This document shows, in pieces, positions 20,935 to 38,653 of a stretch of DNA of 64,000 bases; position 1 is the first letter of the stretch, and each line of letters opens with the position of its first letter. The position numbers and the translations under genes are program-made. The DNA is from Zhaonella formicivorans. GTDB taxonomy: Bacteria > Bacillota > DUOV01 > Zhaonellaceae. Location: assembly GCF_004353525.1 (NCBI RefSeq), contig NZ_CP085524.1:2142142-2206141 (forward strand), written 5' to 3'. Below the pieces are notes generated by a model that saw only the letters and a program-made list of their open reading frames with translations, did no database searches and was not told where the DNA came from.

Positions 20935-21210
20935 CTATCCGAAAATAACTGTAATGTCTATGTCCTGTTGCTCCTACTGTCTGAATCAAGAGCACCAATT
21001 GCTCGGTACCGGACTTCCAGCGGCACGCGGTGACGCGACGTCCTGTCGCTCCACCACTCATCTCAGTCCATGCTGCTCGTCCGCTTTCAGTCCTTGCCCT
21101 CGCAGGGTGCTCTAAGGATTCAAACAAAGGCAGCTTCCACGGACATAAATCATTACACAATTTCCATCTACACAATTTTCATCGTACTTGGTGCTACTAA
21201 GTAGCATGAG
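20935..21210 (+). repeat. Large structured intergenic element E (copy 1)
   Basis: 276 bp starting CTATCCGAAAATAACTG and ending in a small hairpin GCTACTAAGTAGCATGAG. The outer ~55 nt arms are complementary (TGTAATG.TATGTCC against GGACATAAATCATTACA; GAATC..AGAGCACC against GGTGCTC..GGATTC). The interior carries a GC-rich module GACTTCCAGCGGCACGCG also in copy 3. It sits between a terminator and the cytochrome ribosome-binding site. Confidence 0.7.
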
Positions 21211-21247
21211 TATCTAAATAAAAAATATTCTATGGAGGTGGAGTATC

Positions 21248-26153: not shown

Positions 26154-27770
26154 CTACATTTCTTTTGAATTTTGCAGCCTTGCGCTTCTTGTCGTTTCCT
26201 GGACATCATATACGTATTTATCAGTTACTAAAGGTTTAATGCTGTCTCCAAAATCTTCTTTGAGCCATTTTACAGTTGAAACGGCCAGGATAACAGTAAG
26301 GAATAATACCGGTACACTGGTTAAAACTGAGGAGAGCTGTACTACTTTCATCCCGCCAACCAACAGCAAGGCAATTGTGGCAAAAAGGAGCATCCCAGCC
26401 CAAAAAACTCTGGACCACTTGGGAGGTTCCATCCCTGCGCGTATTTCAAAACAGCTCATGTTGGCAATAGTGTACGCGTTGGCATCCACGCCGGTGGCTT
26501 GGGAAATCGCCATTACTATAATAAAGAATGGAACAACCACTGCTTTTAATGGCAGCGTATCGAGCATGGCCGAGATCACTCCGGGACCGCCGGACTCACG
26601 CAAAATTTTTGCCAAATCGACTCCTTTATGCAAAAGCTGATCTACATTGTAACCGCCAAAAACAAGATAAAAAAGAGCACTGCCCGCAGTGGCCGAGAGG
26701 ACCATGTTTAAGATTAATTCCCTGATAGTACGCCCCCTCGATATTCTGGCGGCAAAAAGCCCTACGTATATGGCCCAAGCAAGCCACCAGGCCCAGTAAA
26801 AAACGGTCCAGTCCTGTGGAAAGCCTGATTTTGTAATGGGATCAGTATATAGGCTCATGCGCAGAAAATTTTGGAACAGCATGCCCAAATTATCAATAAA
26901 GTAGGATAGCATCCAAAAAGTCGGTCCGACCAGCAACACAAACCCCAGCAAAATAAATGTTAAATACATATTATAGTCGGCCAGTTTGGCAATACCTGAA
27001 TACAGTCCTTTATAAGTACTATAGCCGTAAATTAAAGCAAATAACACCGCAACAATGAGTTTAACAAAAATAGTATCCTCAACGCCCAGGTAATCGGCAG
27101 TCAACTTGGAGAGCATAGGTATTACAAAGCCCAGTGATGTGGCAATACCCCCAACCATGCCAACTACTACAACCAAATCAATAATTCTGCCCACCCAACC
27201 ATCAACCAAATTGCCTAAAACACCCCGGCAGGCGTAACTGGGATACAAGTAAGGTCTTTTTCTGACATAAAACATATAGGAGAAGGCAACAGCTGGTACG
27301 GCAAAAGTCGCCCAGGCGCTAAAGCCCCAGTGAAATATCCCGTAAGAGAGTGCCCACTGCGCAGCCTGAGGCGAAAAAGGTTCAGCCCAAAAGGGCGGTG
27401 CTTGGAGATAATAAACAGGCTCGATACATGCCCAATAAACAAGGCCGGCACCCGAACCACCGCAAAACATCATAGCAATCCACGTAAAAGTTGAAAATTC
27501 GGGTTCATCATCCCGGCCCCCCAATTTAACTCTGCCATATGGGCCAAAAGCTAACCAGAGCAAAAAAATCAACGAGCCGAAGACAAGTGCTTCCCATAAC
27601 CAGTCAGTGCTATGGGTGATTATATACATTGCCTTGTCGATGACACCTTGGGCGGACTGCTGGAAAATAACCATGGGGCCATAAAATAACAAGCATATAA
27701 TAACGCTGCCCCAAAATACAGGAGGATTTATTTTCGCTATTACACACTTTTCCTGCTTAAAATCATCCAC
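26154..27770 (-). CDS. BCCT-family betaine/carnitine/choline-type transporter
   Basis: 538 aa, 12 membrane segments. Typical BCCT regions: FSTFTWIAMMFCGGSGAGLVYW (in part), HWGFSAWATFAVPAVAFSYM, and the segment with the Trp box DWTVFYWAWWLAW that binds the quaternary ammonium group. Likely imports glycine betaine or a related methylated amine for the methyltransferase encoded just upstream. GTG start with GGGGGAGAG. TAG stop with TAA three codons later. A sigma54-type promoter lies about 50 bp upstream. Confidence 0.93.
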   Translation of the reverse strand: MDDFKQEKCVIAKINPPVFWGSVIICLLFYGPMVIFQQSAQGVIDKAMYIITHSTDWLWEALVFGSLIFLLWLAFGPYGRVKLGGRDDEPEFSTFTWIAMMFCGGSGAGLVYWACIEPVYYLQAPPFWAEPFSPQAAQWALSYGIFHWGFSAWATFAVPAVAFSYMFYVRKRPYLYPSYACRGVLGNLVDGWVGRIIDLVVVVGMVGGIATSLGFVIPMLSKLTADYLGVEDTIFVKLIVAVLFALIYGYSTYKGLYSGIAKLADYNMYLTFILLGFVLLVGPTFWMLSYFIDNLGMLFQNFLRMSLYTDPITKSGFPQDWTVFYWAWWLAWAIYVGLFAARISRGRTIRELILNMVLSATAGSALFYLVFGGYNVDQLLHKGVDLAKILRESGGPGVISAMLDTLPLKAVVVPFFIIVMAISQATGVDANAYTIANMSCFEIRAGMEPPKWSRVFWAGMLLFATIALLLVGGMKVVQLSSVLTSVPVLFLTVILAVSTVKWLKEDFGDSIKPLVTDKYVYDVQETTRSARLQNSKEM

Positions 27771-27820: not shown

Positions 27821-27836
27821 TGCAATATCTATGCCA
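27821..27836 (-). promoter_or_regulatory. Sigma54 promoter for BCCT gene 1
   Basis: Minus strand TGGCATAGATATTGCA matches the -24 GG / -12 GC consensus with correct spacing. It lies 50 bp upstream of the GTG start. One of four such sites in the module. Confidence 0.75.
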
Positions 27837-28061: not shown

Positions 28062-29486
28062 TCAATTTCCCAAAACTTTTTGCATGTATGCCCTTAACTC
28101 CTTGTCAAGCTCGGGGTCAAGCAGCGATTCAGGGGCGTTACTTATAATTTCCTTATACTTTCTATTTGCTTTTACTACCACATCTTCCGCACCGGCAGCT
28201 TTCCAATCATCGTAGGACTCCCAGTCAGATACAGTAGGTGTCCAGAGATCACGGAAATGTTCAAAGGTGCTGGGGTGAGTCAGATACGTACCCTTATGCC
28301 CCACTTCCTGGATAACATCTACTGCTAAAGCAGCATCTGATGTATCGATACCCTCGGAGATGCGTTTTACCCTCCTGACCAGTTCTTCATCAATGATGAA
28401 CTTTTCATAGGAAGTGACAAAAATGGCATCCAATACACCCATGCACTGCACAAAGATATTGGCGCCGCTCATCATGCCCATCATCAGGCTCTGCATTGTT
28501 TCGTATCCCGCTTGGCAGTCCAGGGATTTGGAGTGGTTAATACCGCACATGGTTCTAGTAGGCAGGTGGTAAAACTCTCGCCCCATCTGAATATTGGGAG
28601 TGTTGATTAGCATTGCCTCGGGTGAACCGGCAGCGAAACTAGCCGACTTCATGTAGCCCACTGTTGACGCGGTGGCATAGACTACAGGTGTTCCCGGGTT
28701 GACCAGCTGGGTCAGGACTATTCCTGCCAAGAGCTCTACGTTTTGCAGCACAGCAGTTCCCAAAAGGCTGATGGGCCCGGAAACGCCTGCCATGATGCAA
28801 GGCGCCAGCAGAATTACCTGATTGCGTTTAGCATATTCGATAATAGTCTCCAAGGTGTCTGGAGCATAGGCAAGAGGGCTTAGGGAATTCACCAGCACAC
28901 CCACATAGTGGTTCTCCTGCAGCCGGCCCTTTTGACCCAAAGCTATTTCTGCCATGTCCAGCATCTGCCGGACCTGTGTCCCGTCTGTACAGGCACCGAT
29001 AATCGGTTTATCTGTGTGTTTCAGCATCTCATACATCATATAGATATACTTTTTGTTTGCATCCACGTCACTGGGGTCCACGGGAATACTCCCATTGAGT
29101 TGAACCACATCACTGGCCTGGCAGAGCTTCATGATGTTGGCGTAATCCTCCAATGTAGCCGGCCTGCGGCCCCGGTCCAAATCCTCGATATAGACCGGAC
29201 CAACGTTGGGCTGGATCAGCAACCCTTCACCCACTGTGACGGAGTGGTCGTCGTTTCTGGCCTTCCACCTGAATGTGCCGGGACAGGTTTCAAGCGCTTT
29301 TTCCACCATATCGGCAGAAAAATATACTATTTCACCTTCAACCCTTGCTCCATGTTTTTTAAAGATTTCCAGCGCTTCTGCACAGTGAAAAACAACACCG
29401 GTTTCCCGAAGGATTTTTAGTGAAGCGTCATGGATCCTTTGATAATCCTCTTTGGAGATTACCTCCATCCTACTGATTAAAGCCAT
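28062..29486 (-). CDS. MttB-superfamily methyltransferase lacking pyrrolysine (MtgB-like)
   Basis: About 474 aa, TIM-barrel corrinoid methyltransferase family. At the place where Pyl-type MttB has amber, this protein reads PTRTMCG-I-NHSKSLDCQ, so Ile replaces Pyl. Known non-Pyl members demethylate quaternary amines such as glycine betaine (MtgB), proline betaine or carnitine. Substrate here is unproven but context (BCCT downstream) supports a quaternary amine. Start uncertain: ATG 29486 is preceded by GAGGATGA, ATG 29498 sits on the purine tract. The corrinoid protein is not in the window. Confidence 0.88.
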   Translation of the reverse strand: MALISRMEVISKEDYQRIHDASLKILRETGVVFHCAEALEIFKKHGARVEGEIVYFSADMVEKALETCPGTFRWKARNDDHSVTVGEGLLIQPNVGPVYIEDLDRGRRPATLEDYANIMKLCQASDVVQLNGSIPVDPSDVDANKKYIYMMYEMLKHTDKPIIGACTDGTQVRQMLDMAEIALGQKGRLQENHYVGVLVNSLSPLAYAPDTLETIIEYAKRNQVILLAPCIMAGVSGPISLLGTAVLQNVELLAGIVLTQLVNPGTPVVYATASTVGYMKSASFAAGSPEAMLINTPNIQMGREFYHLPTRTMCGINHSKSLDCQAGYETMQSLMMGMMSGANIFVQCMGVLDAIFVTSYEKFIIDEELVRRVKRISEGIDTSDAALAVDVIQEVGHKGTYLTHPSTFEHFRDLWTPTVSDWESYDDWKAAGAEDVVVKANRKYKEIISNAPESLLDPELDKELRAYMQKVLGN

Positions 29487-29551
29487 ATGATTTTTCATCC
29501 TCTCCAGCTTTAGTCTCAACTTTTAATGATTACTTTTTAGCTGGTTACTAA

Positions 29552-29567
29552 AGCAATTTTCATGCCA
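29552..29567 (-). promoter_or_regulatory. Sigma54 promoter for MttB-family gene
   Basis: Minus strand TGGCATGAAAATTGCT, correct -24/-12 spacing, 66-80 bp upstream of the methyltransferase start. A palindrome AAGTC-N5-GACTT lies about 75 bp further upstream. Confidence 0.8.
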
Positions 29568-29690: not shown

Positions 29691-31139
29691 TTATTTACTT
29701 GCCCTATTTAAATGTTTTCGGATTACCCGCGTCGCCTTGCTTTGGCTGATGTTCAAAGCAGCCGCCACTTTATACGAACTTCCCAGCTGCCGGTAGAGCT
29801 GAATTATCAATTCTTTTTCTTTTTCCTTAATGGAAACCCCATCAGTAAAGATTATAGGGGGCAGACTTTGCCCACCAGGTTGACTGTCTTGCATCGCCCG
29901 GATATTTTCCGGCAAGTGTTCAGGCAAAATCTTTGTTTCCGGGACTGTTACCACTAAACGCTCAACCAAATGTTCCACCTCGCGTACGTTTCCTGGCCAC
30001 GAGTATCGGACTAACATATCCAAGCACTTTTGGGAAAATTGATGGGAGACTTTATATTTGGCATTATATCTATCCAGAAAGTAGCAAAGTAACGGGATGA
30101 TATCCTCGGTCCTTTCCCTTAAAGGCGGAAGAGCAATTTCAATTACATTCAGCCTGTAATAAAGGTCTTCGCGAAAACTTTTTTCTTCCACCAGTTTTAG
30201 AAGATTGCGGTTGGTGGCTGCCAATATTCTGATATTAACTTTTTTATGTTCTTTGCCGCCTACGGGAAGAAAACTGTTGTCCTGCACAAGTTCCAGCAGC
30301 TTAGCCTGCAGCTTAAGGGGCACTTCCCCGATTTCATCCAAGAACAAAGTTCCTCCGTCAGCTAATTCAACCAATCCTACTTTACCGCTTTTTTCCGCTC
30401 CGGTAAAAGCCCCCCGGCAATAGCCGAATAATTCTGACTCCAGCAGTTGTTCGGGGATGGCTGCGCAGTTAATACTCATAAAGGGTCCGTCTTTTCTTGT
30501 ACTATGGTTATGAATAAATTTAGCCAAAACATTTTTCCCGGTTCCCGACTCGCCAAGGATTAGCACAGTTGAGTCAACGGCCGCTACCCTTTGGGCTATT
30601 TGCAAACAAGCTCTCATCTTTTTGCTGTGGGCGATATATCCATCAAAGCTTATTTCCTTTTGTCTCAGTTCATGGACTTCTTGTTTATACTTTTCTACTA
30701 ATTTTCGGGTTTCATCTAAATCATGCTTTAATTGCTCAAGATGGGTAATATCGCGACTGTTCATCACCACAAATTCTATCTCGCCCTGGTTGTTAAGAAT
30801 CGGGACAGCAGTAACCACCAGCTTTTTGCCGAAATTAGTCACTTGTTCCAGGGTAACCGTTTTCTTTTCGCGAAAAACAACCGGAGCCAGTGCCGGCGAA
30901 TAATAGCCTTCGTTGACCAGATAATGAACTGTTTTACCAATTACATCCGAGGGCTTCAAACCATAATGCCTCTCGCATGCTTCATTTACATAAACAACCA
31001 TGCCTTTACCGTCAACTACAAAAATTTCATCAAAAGAGTTGTCCAAAATCTTTTTTAAATCATCCCAGCTTAAATTATTGCCCTGTAGGTTTTGTTGCTC
31101 AAGCTTACCGCCAGCCAACCTGCATCTCCCTTTCCCCAT
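29691..31139 (-). CDS. PAS-domain sigma54-dependent transcriptional activator
   Basis: 482 aa. PAS sensor at about 25-130 ([20 protein letters not shown]), linker coiled coil, AAA+ domain at about 165-400 with Walker [10 protein letters not shown], the sigma54-contacting GAFTGA loop and [13 protein letters not shown], then a C-terminal helix-turn-helix ([20 protein letters not shown]). It probably senses a small ligand and activates the four sigma54 promoters around it. It lies between the two methyltransferase genes. The ATG at 31139 lacks a clear Shine-Dalgarno; TTG at 31118, with GGGAG, is an alternative. Confidence 0.93.
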
Positions 31140-31342: not shown

Positions 31343-31392
31343 TAAAAAAACCGTGGATAAAGAGTTTTATACCCCACTCTTTTATCCACGGC
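31343..31392 (-). terminator. Terminator after pyrrolysine mttB
   Basis: On the minus strand CCGTGGATAAAAGAGT pairs with ACTCTTTATCCACGG, followed by TTTTTTT; a long and strong terminator immediately after the gene. Confidence 0.9.
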
Positions 31393-31399
31393 ACCTTAC

Positions 31400-32890
31400 T
31401 TAAGCGGGTTTATTTTTATTACAGCTAAGAAGCTTTGCCTCAGCTTCTTCGATAATTGAACGCAGTTCCAAAGCCACATTTTCTGATAAAGGTTCAGGTT
31501 TATGGTTCTGTAAAATTGCAACAGCTTCTTCGTGGGCTACCGCTGTTAGGTCCTTACATCCCCTTTCCTCCCAAGCGTATCTCATCCTGCGGTCCAGAAT
31601 ATTGGGGCGGGACTGTTCCGTCCTCATATACTTGATAGTATGTTCCTGCATGAGGAAGTCACCGCCGGCTCCTACCTTGTCGATGACATCCACCGCAAGG
31701 GTTTCGTCGCTAATCTCAATCCCTTGAACCACTTTCCGGACCATTTTGATAATGTCGTTGGACATTACCAATTGCTCAAAACTCAAGGTAATTCCTAATT
31801 CCAGCATCCCCACTCCATAAATCAGGTTGGCACCTGCCAACGCAGTTAGCAGAGTGGACATGGTGGTCTCGTGGGCTGCCTGAGCATCAGGGACTTTGCT
31901 GTCAACCTAACCACCGGCAACCCAGCTAGGCAGCAGGTAGTATTGGGCCAAGGCCGCCACAGCTGAGTTAATCATGCCCAATTCCGGTGCGCCTACAGGA
32001 GCAGTGGTGGTTTTCAGGTCCATCATGGTAGTGGAACTCCCGTAAATTACCGGCGCCCCCTTACGGGTCAACTGGTTCAGCACAACTCCGGATAACACTT
32101 CTGCATTGTGGGTCACCAATGTTCCTGCCAAAGTTACCGGGGCTGAACCGCCGGCCATGGCCATGGAAAGGATATTCACCGGGACGCCATAACGGGCACA
32201 GGCAATGATTGCCTCACAGCAGTGGTCGGTGAGCTGCAGCGGACTGGTAGGGCAGACGTTAACAGATAAAATCGGACGCTCCCTTAACTTGTCCTTCCCC
32301 CCGGCAACAACAGCCGCCATCTTAAAAAGATAATCGGCATGCTTGCCATGGACGCCTCCCACGAATACGTGCTTCGAAGTGTTGAGGAAACATGCTTCCG
32401 CTGCGTGCAGGGGGTGGACATCGGCAGGAATGTCGTGGGGAGCCACAGCCCTTAGAACTACGTCAATTTCATCCAGGGCATCGCACAGTAGCGCCGCATT
32501 GGCAATGTCCTGCTTAGTAGTCTTTCTGTACTCCCCTGTAAAGGGGTCGATGACCATGATGCCTTCCCCGAAGTTGGTGAAATTTACCCTTCTGCCTTCT
32601 AATACAACATCATGCACAGGGCTTCTGCCATGGAGTACAATTTTGCTTGGGGCGGAACGAATGCAGTCTTCTACCACATATGGAGGAAGTTTTACAATCC
32701 GGCTCTTTTGATCTACACTGGCACCCCCGCTGTGAAAGATTTCCAAAGCTTCATCGCTTTGGACCTTGATTCCTGTTTTCTGGAGCACTTGCAGGGTCGC
32801 TAAGTGAATAGCATAGAGCTCTGCCTCGGAAAACATTTGCATACCGAAACCCCGGGTCACATTGACCGCCGCTTGAGTATGTGAGCGCAC
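31400..32890 (-). CDS. mttB: Trimethylamine methyltransferase MttB with in-frame amber (pyrrolysine) codon
   Basis: Read through one TAG at 31907-31909 this is a 496-aa MttB. Frame is unbroken on both sides: [23 protein letters not shown], which is the place where MttB proteins carry pyrrolysine. The homolog at 28062 aligns across the codon with Ile in place (PTRTMCG-I-NHSK), so the C-terminal part is homologous and not random. MttB transfers a methyl group from trimethylamine to a corrinoid protein. Start GTG with AAGGAGGGG. Needs pyl genes, not seen in the window. A sigma54 promoter lies about 315 bp upstream, with element E in the leader. Confidence 0.92.
31907..31909 (-). other. Amber codon read as pyrrolysine (residue 328)
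   Basis: The only in-frame stop in the 496-codon mttB frame, located at the family's known Pyl site; translation continues with conserved sequence for 168 residues to a TAA. Confidence 0.88.
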
Positions 32891-32908
32891 TTCTTCCCCT
32901 CCTTGAAA

Positions 32909-33065
32909 CTATCCTGAAATAACTGTAACGTCTATGTCCTGTCGCTCCCACTGTCTGAATCAAGAGCACCAACTGCTCGCCAAGGGTTCAGACAAAGGTC
33001 GCCTCCACAGACATAAACGGTTACAAAATTTCCCTCATACTGAGGGTACTGCTAAGTAGCATGGG
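32909..33065 (+). repeat. Large structured intergenic element E (copy 2)
   Basis: 157 bp starting CTATCCTGAAATAACTG and ending CTGCTAAGTAGCATGGG. Outer arms pair (TGTAACG.CTATGTCCTGT with ACAGACATAAACGGTTACA). It lacks the inner GC-rich module of copies 1 and 3. It lies in the 5' leader of mttB, antisense to it. Confidence 0.7.
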
Positions 33066-33202
33066 TGGCTATTTTGAAAATTGACTCAATATCAATATGT
33101 GATGCACTTACCACCTCCCGGGAAACGGCAAGCTGCTGCCTTCATCACTCGTAAAATCGGTGCGCACCATAAAACACTAACTTTTTATCCAACCATCCAG
33201 CC

Positions 33203-33218
33203 AGCAATTTCCGTGCCA
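33203..33218 (-). promoter_or_regulatory. Sigma54 promoter for mttB
   Basis: Minus strand TGGCACGGAAATTGCT is essentially the sigma54 consensus. Transcription would begin near 33190, giving a leader of about 300 nt that includes element E copy 2. Confidence 0.85.
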
Positions 33219-33467: not shown

Positions 33468-33483
33468 TGGTATAAAAATTGCA
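33468..33483 (+). promoter_or_regulatory. Sigma54 promoter for BCCT gene 2
   Basis: TGGTATAAAAATTGCA on the plus strand has the GG/GC pair at correct spacing, about 108 bp upstream of the proposed start. The rest of 33066-33590 shows no gene. Confidence 0.7.
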
Positions 33484-33590: not shown

Positions 33591-35168
33591 ATTAGCACTC
33601 TGGAAAACAAAAAACACAAAATTGAGCCATGGGTGTTTTTTACGCCTTTAGTTTTTGTCGTTGCCTTTTGCTTGTGGGTTTTTCGGGACCCTGAGCAAGC
33701 AGCAAAAGGTCTGCAAAAATTTTATTCATTTATTACTGATACTTTAGCTTGGACTTACGAATGGTATGTGCTTATTTTGTTTGCACTTTGTTTCTACTTT
33801 ATTTTCGGCCCTTACGCCAATAAAAGATTAGGAGATGAGAAACCGGAATTCAGCACTTTATCATGGCTGGGCATGATCTTTACTTCCTTTGCAGGCCTGG
33901 GAGTGTTAACCTGGACTTCTATAGAATTTTTTTACTATTTACAAACTCCGCCTTTTGGAGCAAAGCCATTCTCACCGGAAGCCCAACCTTGGGCCCTTGC
34001 TTATCCCTTATTTCACTGGGGATTCTCCGCCTGGGCGCTGAATACTGTGTTTGGACTGGTCTTTGCCTATCTGTTCTTTGTTAAGAAAAAAGATGTAATA
34101 AGGCCGAGCAGCGCCTGTGAGCCAATTTTTGGAGAACGTTTAACTAACGGCTGGCTTGGCAAATTAATTGATGCCTTTTTCGTCATTGGCTTTGTCGGCG
34201 GGGTGACCACTTGTATCGGTGTTAACGTACCTACTATTTATGCTTTAGCAGGTAAAGTGTTGGGTATTCAGCGCACCCCGACAATAGACGCTGTGATAAT
34301 TTTTTCGTGGTCAATTTTCATGGCCATCTTGCTGTACACCGGTTTGAATAAGGGAATCCGCCTTTTAAGTGACTTCAGAGTTTATTTTGGTTTTGGTATC
34401 CTAGCCGTTATCCTTGCTTTTGGCCCTACCTCATACATCCTCAATACTTTTACAGATTCGGTGGGTCACCTGCTGCAAAACTTTGTAAGGATGAGTTTGT
34501 ATACCGATCCCTATTATAAATCAGGGGTACCTCAGGGCTGGACCGTCTTCTACTGGGCCTGGTATATTGCTCTTGTCCTCCAAGCAGGTATATTTATGGG
34601 GCGAATCTCAAAAGGCAGGACCGTGCGCGAGTATACTATCGGGGCACTGTTAGCCTCCACAGCAGGAAGCTGGATCTTCTTTGCAGTGTTTTCAAATTTC
34701 TCAATGTATGTCTATCAGCAAGGCACCGTACCTATTGCAGATATTATGGCCAGTGGCGGACAAGGCGAAGCGATTGTGTCCATCTGGACCCAATTACCCT
34801 TTAGCGGCATTTTGATACCCATTCTGCTTGTTTATGGGTATATTGCAATGCAGACCTTACTCAACGGTTCCACCTATACTCTGGCCATGGTTACCACTAA
34901 AGAGCTGACCGGGGAAGAAGAGCCTCCTAAATGGAACCGGATCTTCTGGTCCTTGACTTTGGGGCTGATAGCTGTTGCCGTAGTCTCTATCGGCGGGATC
35001 AGACCATCCCAAACTATGACCATTATTGGCTCCCTGCCCATATTCATCATCTCGCTTTTGATTTTGGTCTCTTTCTTTAAAGATGTGCGGGCAAATTGGG
35101 GGGCTAGCAGAGAAGAAAATAATACTATTCAGGCAGTTTCGAACAACAAAAGCTCAATTTCCGGATAG
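33591..35168 (+). CDS. BCCT-family transporter 2
   Basis: About 525 aa, 12 membrane segments, homologous to the BCCT gene at 26154 (HWGFSAWALNTVFGL, GWTVFYWAWYIAL, NFVRMSLYTDP). Likely imports a methylated amine for MttB transcribed divergently. Start: the best Shine-Dalgarno in the region, AAGGAGGAG at 33576, points to an ATT codon at 33591; the first ordinary start (GTG, 33633) has no site and would cut off KKHKIEP just before the first membrane segment. ATT is therefore my choice. Ends before a strong hairpin. Confidence 0.88.
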   Translation: MSTLENKKHKIEPWVFFTPLVFVVAFCLWVFRDPEQAAKGLQKFYSFITDTLAWTYEWYVLILFALCFYFIFGPYANKRLGDEKPEFSTLSWLGMIFTSFAGLGVLTWTSIEFFYYLQTPPFGAKPFSPEAQPWALAYPLFHWGFSAWALNTVFGLVFAYLFFVKKKDVIRPSSACEPIFGERLTNGWLGKLIDAFFVIGFVGGVTTCIGVNVPTIYALAGKVLGIQRTPTIDAVIIFSWSIFMAILLYTGLNKGIRLLSDFRVYFGFGILAVILAFGPTSYILNTFTDSVGHLLQNFVRMSLYTDPYYKSGVPQGWTVFYWAWYIALVLQAGIFMGRISKGRTVREYTIGALLASTAGSWIFFAVFSNFSMYVYQQGTVPIADIMASGGQGEAIVSIWTQLPFSGILIPILLVYGYIAMQTLLNGSTYTLAMVTTKELTGEEEPPKWNRIFWSLTLGLIAVAVVSIGGIRPSQTMTIIGSLPIFIISLLILVSFFKDVRANWGASREENNTIQAVSNNKSSISG

Positions 35169-37567: not shown

Positions 37568-38653
37568 AGATGCAAGTATGCCTCGATAAAAGGCGTGATA
37601 TTCCCGTCCATTACCGCCTGAACATTGCCGATTTCCACGTTGGTCCTATGGTCTTTTACCAAGCTGTAAGGATGGAAGGTATAGGAGCGAATCTGGCTGC
37701 CCCAGGCAATATCCATTTGTTCCCCGCGGATTTCAGCAAGCTGCTCCTCCTGCTCCCGCCGCTTCAACTCAAATAGTTTAGCCTGTAGGAGTTTCATAGC
37801 GCCCAGCCGGTTGGCGTGTTGTGACCGTTCATTTTGGCACTGGACCACGATCCCTGTCGGGAGGTGGGTAATCCGTACTGCCGAGTCAGTCTTATTCACA
37901 TGCTGGCCCCCGGCCCCGCCGGAACGGTAGGTATCAATTTTCAAGTCATCCGGGTCGATGGTTATTTCAGCATCGTTTTCCACCTCAGGCATTACATCCA
38001 CCGAAGCAAAGGAGGTATGCCTTCTGCCCGAGGCATCAAAGGGAGAAATCCTGACCAGGCGGTGTACTCCCTTTTCCGCTTTTAAGTACCCATAGGCGTT
38101 TTCCCCTTTGACCAGGATAGTGGCGCTTTTTACTCCAGCCTCATCTCCTGCCAGGTAATCCATAATCTCCACCTGGTAATTCTTTTCCTCGCACCAGCGG
38201 GTATACATCCTTATGAGCATTTCCACCCAATCCTGGGCCTCTGTCCCGCCCGCCCCGGCATGCAGGGAAAGGATGGCGTTGTTTTTATCGTATGGGCCGC
38301 TGAGCAGCGTCTCCAGTTCCAATTCCTCAAGCTTTTTAAGCAAAGCTTTTAATCCTTTAGACAAGTCAGGTAGCAGTGTTTCGTCTTCTTCCTCTTTAAT
38401 AAGCTCCCACAACACTTCCAGATCTTCCAGCTCTCTCTCCAGATCCTCCACACTTTTCACCTTATCTTTCAGGTTAGTGAGTGTTTGCATCACGGCCTGG
38501 GCTGCATCCCGGTCATCCCAAAAGTCAGGAGCAAGCATTTTGTCTTCAAGCTCTTTTATCTTAGACTCCTTGGCCGGGATGTCAAAGAGAGACCCTCAAT
38601 TCTTGCAATCTTTGCCTAGCTTCGGCAAGCTGTGGGGAGTAATCAGTAAGCAT
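37549..38653 (-). CDS. prfB: Peptide chain release factor 2 with programmed +1 frameshift
   Basis: 367 aa after the frameshift. The first 23 codons (ATG 38653, GAGGTGAT upstream) end at CTT TGA; a +1 shift at CTTTGAC continues as DIPAKESK into the main frame. The main frame has the SPF recognition motif ([11 protein letters not shown]) and the GGQ catalytic motif ([10 protein letters not shown]). RF2 reads UGA/UAA and controls its own level through this shift. Located directly downstream of secA as in most Firmicutes. Confidence 0.96.
38582..38587 (-). promoter_or_regulatory. prfB programmed frameshift site
   Basis: Minus strand AGGGTCTCTCTTTGAC: slippery CTT, in-frame TGA (38582-38584), with an AGGG Shine-Dalgarno-like stretch just upstream. 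Matches the known prfB arrangement. Confidence 0.93.

Follow-up and report, generated by a model that had tools for sequence, protein, structure and literature searches.

A putative hairpin conserved downstream of the UAG codon in bacterial mttB genes with predicted pyrrolysine

Analysis of an mttB gene in a 64-kb stretch of the Zhaonella formicivorans genome (the window) and of its bacterial relatives pointed, with high confidence, to a conserved nucleic-acid hairpin downstream of the in-frame UAG in bacterial pyrrolysine (Pyl)-type mttB genes. We are surer still that UAG-328 of the window gene is translated as pyrrolysine, which would give a full-length methylamine methyltransferase of 496 residues. 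The gene itself is, almost certainly, an ordinary Pyl-MttB gene and a further case of a known type; it adds one more well-supported entry to the known Pyl list, and a standard-code reading would throw away an intact enzyme. The relatives matter more than the gene itself, as they carry the probable losses of the UAG codon and the covarying hairpin that sense-codon genes lack.

An intact mttB frame interrupted by a single TAG

The mttB gene (31400 to 32890) lies on the minus strand, which the preliminary description of the locus had not specified. Read from 32890 to 31400, the frame has a GTG start, 496 codons, a TAA end and, as had been described, one internal stop; the plus-strand reading of the same stretch contains stops throughout. 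The sole internal stop is a TAG at codon 328 (31907 to 31909, minus strand). Since the pieces on either side of it cover neighboring parts of the same Pfam family, PF06253 (profile positions 23 to 337 and 356 to 497), the split is beyond chance, and the part downstream of the TAG is homologous, as previously proposed. A strong ribosome-binding site, AAGGAGGGG (32896 to 32904, minus strand), is located 5 nt upstream of the GTG, and an intrinsic terminator (31344 to 31392, minus strand; fold of -24.1 kcal/mol, z = -5.3) follows immediately 3' of the TAA, a layout that suits the full frame and not the first 327 codons.

The encoded protein reached 761.6 bits against TIGR02369, the trimethylamine (TMA) methyltransferase equivalog model (cut-off, 525), by which its class, that of TMA:corrinoid methyltransferases, is nameable more precisely than before. 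The best solved relative is MttB of Methanosarcina barkeri (PDB 7xcl/7xcm; E value 4e-135, about 1e-135), and the TAG at codon 328 aligns with its Pyl334 (7xcl) in an ungapped stretch, in agreement with the earlier claim that MttB carries Pyl at this site. In the M. barkeri enzyme, Pyl334 is surrounded by Gly110, Met249 and Tyr364 (PMC9842639). The window protein and most Pyl homologs retain the equivalent active-site residues, G108, M243 and Y358, and Thr111 is replaced by Glu here and likewise in most bacterial homologs. Across the genome, a single contig of 3,314,304 bases (3.31 Mb), 19 MttB-family genes were found, 4 with one in-frame TAG and 15 with no internal stop; the TIGR02369-class members among the 19 are exactly the 4 TAG genes.

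Conservation of the TAG and its probable loss in sense-codon relatives

We searched GTDB genomes with peptide patterns that excluded the Pyl site and fetched 80 loci from several phyla. The best match in each of the 80 carried a TAG at the aligned codon. Between the window gene and its ortholog in locus L033, pN/pS was 0.134/0.806 for the part 5' of the TAG and 0.115/0.699 for the part 3' of the TAG; by this measure, purifying selection acts on both sides of it.

We built a tree from 126 MttB proteins, in which a single supported group took in every one of the 94 Pyl members; 16 sense-codon members branched inside this group, at three places. This topology indicates that, within one clade of bacterial Pyl-mttB genes, sense codons have probably taken the place of the UAG on three or more occasions. 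The genome's four Pyl paralogs belong to four different subclades, the window gene grouping with that of "Candidatus Formimonas warabiya" DCMF (here DCMF) and two others. The sense-codon members comprise L035:3249, L117:664 and a 14-member subclade (L032, L048, L050, L051, L052, L059, L060, L064, L067, L071, L081, L087, L115 and L119); the sense replacements of the Pyl codon are Trp, Leu, and Ile/Val/Ala/His/Gln. Sense-codon copies often adjoin a UAG copy, and some still score above the TIGR02369 cut-off. A search of viral contigs returned no relatives, and plasmids yielded only distant homologs, the best about 32 to 33% identical.

A probable covarying hairpin downstream of the UAG

Whether decoding of UAG as pyrrolysine needs or uses an mRNA signal has been debated since the PYLIS proposal. 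Early on, mention was made of an element in the first mttB genes from archaea, and for archaeal mtmB a partial effect of an mRNA element was described (PMC2933860). The mttB region was reported without sign of a common structure (PMC3639795), and the current view is that decoding requires no mRNA signal (PMC8211752). In contrast to the view of the mttB region in PMC3639795, covariation in the bacterial genes examined here supports a hairpin, of which we found no earlier description in the literature.

In the window gene, the predicted hairpin GUUGGC-AGGU-GCCAAC falls within codons 350 to 355 and starts 65 nt after the UAG (31826 to 31841, minus strand). These codons (ALAGAN) use the same synonymous codons, GCG TTG GCA GGN GCC AAC, across very different bacteria, and nowhere in the gene is synonymous constraint stronger when serine codons, which form two families not linked by single changes, are left out. 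The general fold in Pyl-mttB genes is GUUGGC-AGGN-GCCAAC.

Only two stem pairs are synonymous on both sides, the third-base pairs 350.3/355.3 and 351.3/354.3. Among 129 genes, the former was GC in 44, AT in 32 and GU in 11, and the latter GC in 76, AT in 15 and GU in 13. A simple pair count gave a +3 slide a covariation score above that of the hairpin; as we took this for a codon-usage effect, the test was repeated for every third-base pair within GC3 strata. The two stem pairs then ranked first and second of 2642 (z = 5.6 and 5.3), and fourth place went to a third pair that shares their axis, 347.3/358.3. Independent contrasts on the tree ran in the paired direction at 7.9:1.2 (median p = 0.04) and, for the second stem pair, at 5.8:1.3 (median p = 0.125, few contrasts); those for unpaired control pairs were near even.

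Scanning the 129 Pyl-mttB genes for all 6-bp stems with loops of 3 to 8 over codons 20 to 480 revealed the full stem in 77 genes versus 4.8 expected, far above any other place, with 52 of the 129 lacking it. A second set of 35 genes, retrieved with a protein profile, reproduced both the codon bias (TTG, 67% versus 21% expected; GCA, 85% versus 28%; GCC, 68% versus 29%) and the covariation. None of the 16 sense-codon clade members has the full stem, and the codon bias is absent there. When only genes coding for LAGAN were compared, the stem was present in 76 of 106 Pyl genes versus 0 of 8 sense-codon genes, a contrast in which only two independent losses are informative. The window gene has the complete stem, and a 35-nt piece folds at -10.4 kcal/mol; its nearest orthologs (L033 and L034) each miss one stem pair. 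The energy effect of the hairpin is modest, and RNAalifold gave no consensus structure for 40 sequences. A seemingly invariant purine after the UAG (codon 329; 95 of 95 genes in the first set) was discarded, as 8 of the 35 further genes have T.

What the hairpin might do is a more tentative matter. Its function could be tied to the UAG, favoring pyrrolysine over termination or over the consequences of termination, and it would decay once the UAG has become a sense codon; the pattern in the sequences leaves this link somewhat short of an even bet. With 65 nt between them, we think the hairpin is too far from the UAG to touch a ribosome waiting there. Alternatively, a protein might recognize the sequence as a palindrome in the DNA. 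The hairpin makes the question of an mRNA signal for UAG decoding directly testable in bacteria.

Gene neighborhood and putative substrate

A PAS and sigma-54 activator gene (PrdR-like; 29691 to 31139, minus strand), the presumed cluster regulator, lies between the Pyl mttB gene and a second, non-Pyl mttB homolog of the quaternary-amine methyltransferase type (28062 to 29519, minus strand). This paralog had been said to continue through the place of the TAG with Ile, which alignment confirmed; its product is nearer MtgB than MttB and reached only 344.6 bits against TIGR02369. The neighborhood also includes a BCCT-family betaine/carnitine/choline transporter gene (26154 to 27770, minus strand) and a divergent second one (33633 to 35168, plus strand), the latter scoring 595.7 bits against a CaiT-type model with a cut-off of 541.

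Perfect TGGCAY-N5-TTGCW sites, corresponding to predicted sigma-54 (-24/-12) promoters, occur exactly three times in the 64 kb, all on the minus strand: before the Pyl mttB gene (TGGCACGGAAATTGCT, 33203 to 33218), before the Ile-type mttB gene (TGGCATGAAAATTGCT, 29552 to 29567) and before the same-strand BCCT gene (TGGCATAGATATTGCA, 27821 to 27836). A sigma-54-like site with one mismatch precedes the divergent BCCT gene (33468 to 33483, plus strand). From this arrangement we infer a methylamine/quaternary-amine regulon, in which the neighboring activator, judging by context, would switch on mttB together with the two BCCT transporter genes and the Ile-type mttB gene. The pairing of a Pyl-MttB gene with nearby genes for a BCCT transporter and an Ile-type MttB is repeated in DCMF, in Desulfosporosinus and in metagenome-assembled genomes of Bacillota; the Ile-type neighbors there are 67 to 79% identical to that of the window, and most of these modules also have the PAS/sigma-54 activator. 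The module of Pyl-MttB, Ile-type MttB and BCCT was seen around the matches in L033, L037, L038 and L041.

Between the sigma-54 promoter and the ribosome-binding site of mttB, the leader carries a copy of a dispersed host-genome repeat (32909 to 33080, minus strand). The repeat is roughly 170 to 290 nt long, has about 20 genome copies, including another in the window at about 20935 to 21211 (minus strand), and matched no Rfam family. In the orthologs of L033 and L034, the promoter is at most 90 bp from the start codon. A riboswitch was considered for the mttB leader and rejected, as no Rfam match appeared even at a relaxed threshold and the leader has the dispersed repeat instead.

By analogy, the pyrroline ring in the TIM-barrel active site would bind a tertiary amine, with trimethylamine the likeliest candidate, and would offer a methyl group of this amine to the cobalt of a corrinoid protein whose gene is located at another site in the genome. 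A corrinoid protein gene is a usual companion of mttB, not a required one; none stands beside this copy within the 64-kb window. Two further Pyl genes (L015 and L016) do have an adjoining corrinoid protein gene, and the genome also encodes three RACo-type corrinoid activators. One of its further genes encodes a Pyl dimethylamine methyltransferase, MtbB, with one TAG, and no MtmB homolog was found in the genome. Four Pyl MttB proteins and one Pyl MtbB, with no MtmB found, suggest monomethylamine as the end product.

As the gene belongs to a sigma-54-type module that also includes an Ile-type MttB and two betaine-type transporters, the enzyme may use TMA or another tertiary amine left after demethylation of a quaternary amine. 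BCCT transporters are not needed for TMA, which makes the exact substrate less certain. We consider it unlikely, but worth serious attention, that Pyl is inserted and the substrate is nevertheless a tertiary amine other than TMA, for example one formed by the Ile-type MttB from a BCCT-imported quaternary amine. The recurrence of BCCT, Ile-type MttB and mostly the activator around Pyl-MttB in DCMF and several Bacillota is consistent with such a substrate, as are the perfect sigma-54 sites before the same-strand members, and the authors of the DCMF study left room for a new Pyl-MttB role (PMC9768040). However, the score of the protein is far above the cut-off of the TMA equivalog, its TMA active site is retained, and the glycine betaine-induced clusters of DCMF are other, non-Pyl ones, all of which argues against this alternative.

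Decoding of the UAG

The organism had been predicted to encode the pyl machinery, and a search of the genome recovered the full set. The pylT gene, with anticodon CUA (L014:12114-12185, minus strand), adjoins pylSc and pylSn, whose products scored 389 bits (cut-off, 178) and 143 bits (cut-off, 51), respectively; PylB, PylC and PylD reached 512.6, 468.1 and 288.9 bits, each over its NCBIfam cut-off. The pyl genes are split, with pylT-pylSc-pylSn at 2.593 Mb (L014) and a pylBCD operon at 0.70 Mb (L030), about 1.9 Mb away by sequence coordinates. Where pyl genes were found among 299 genomes of the phylum, the distance between pylSc and pylD is mostly no more than 4 kb; the pyl genes are apparently split in G059 (separate contigs) and DCMF, too.

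PylB, PylC and PylD would make pyrrolysine from lysine, PylSc together with PylSn would charge it onto tRNA-Pyl(CUA), and this tRNA would compete with release factor 1 (RF1) at the UAG. TAG is also an ordinary stop that ends 11 of the 45 window genes, and RF1 is present in the genome, so UAG decoding must compete with termination; some translation of mttB should therefore stop at codon 327. The window gene for release factor 2, prfB, contains a classic programmed +1 frameshift site, CTT-TGA-C (38582 to 38587, minus strand), and its full start is probably at 38653, not at 38538.

Such termination could in principle be purposeful, with the UAG serving partly as a stop and yielding a truncated product of 327 residues besides the full protein. 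The use of UAG as a normal stop in about a quarter of the window genes and the presence of RF1 would fit two products, but the N-terminal piece would have neither Pyl nor the active-site Tyr358, no second function is known for it, and selection and gene layout favor the full protein, which makes a designed stop improbable. Insertion of another residue by an ordinary amber suppressor is hardly credible: no point in its support was found, including no further CUA-anticodon tRNA besides tRNA-Pyl in the stretches scanned (a small part of the genome), whereas the genome has tRNA-Pyl(CUA), its synthetase and the Pyl synthesis genes, and the catalytic residue known from this position is Pyl. That the gene is a pseudogene, a dispensable copy of mttB that recently acquired a nonsense mutation, is a reading for which only the TAG itself and the repeat in the leader would speak; it is ruled out for practical purposes by the conserved TAG in orthologs and the purifying selection downstream of it, next to a complete pyl system and an intact ribosome-binding site, promoter and terminator.

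Comparison with known systems

The stretch after the UAG matches PYLIS_3 (Rfam RF02510) at 89 bits, but the Rfam consensus does not contain the hairpin at codons 350 to 355. We did not accept this match as independent proof of structure, as its consensus pairs are scattered and the score is mostly sequence similarity.

Non-Pyl members of the MttB superfamily, such as the glycine betaine methyltransferase MtgB (PDB 2qne/9yce), belong to the same protein family, and the paralog at 28062 sits on the MtgB side of it. Unlike the window protein, MtgB-type members have a sense residue at the Pyl site, and the known ones act on quaternary amines.

MttB of M. barkeri shares homology over the whole length with the window protein, including the aligned UAG/Pyl and the kept Gly110, Met249 and Tyr364. 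In contrast, the window gene is bacterial, encodes Glu for Thr111 and has no adjoining mttC; its neighbors are BCCT transporters and a sigma-54 activator, and its host has the split bacterial PylSc/PylSn.

The closest parallel is found in DCMF, whose Pyl-MttB ortholog is about 79 to 80% identical, has its TAG at codon 328 and is likewise accompanied by BCCT and Ile-type MttB neighbors. There, a promoter-like site is found 87 bp upstream of the start codon, without the repeat seen in the window leader. DCMF also has many more mttB genes than the window organism, 82 in total, with Pyl in 23 of its 96 methylamine methyltransferase genes (PMC6778437). The splitting that had been anticipated for a standard annotation of the window gene is documented in DCMF, where Pyl or selenocysteine codons had broken genes into 28 pairs that needed joining by hand (PMC6778437). 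Seven Pyl-MttB proteins were detected in the DCMF proteome (PMC9768040).
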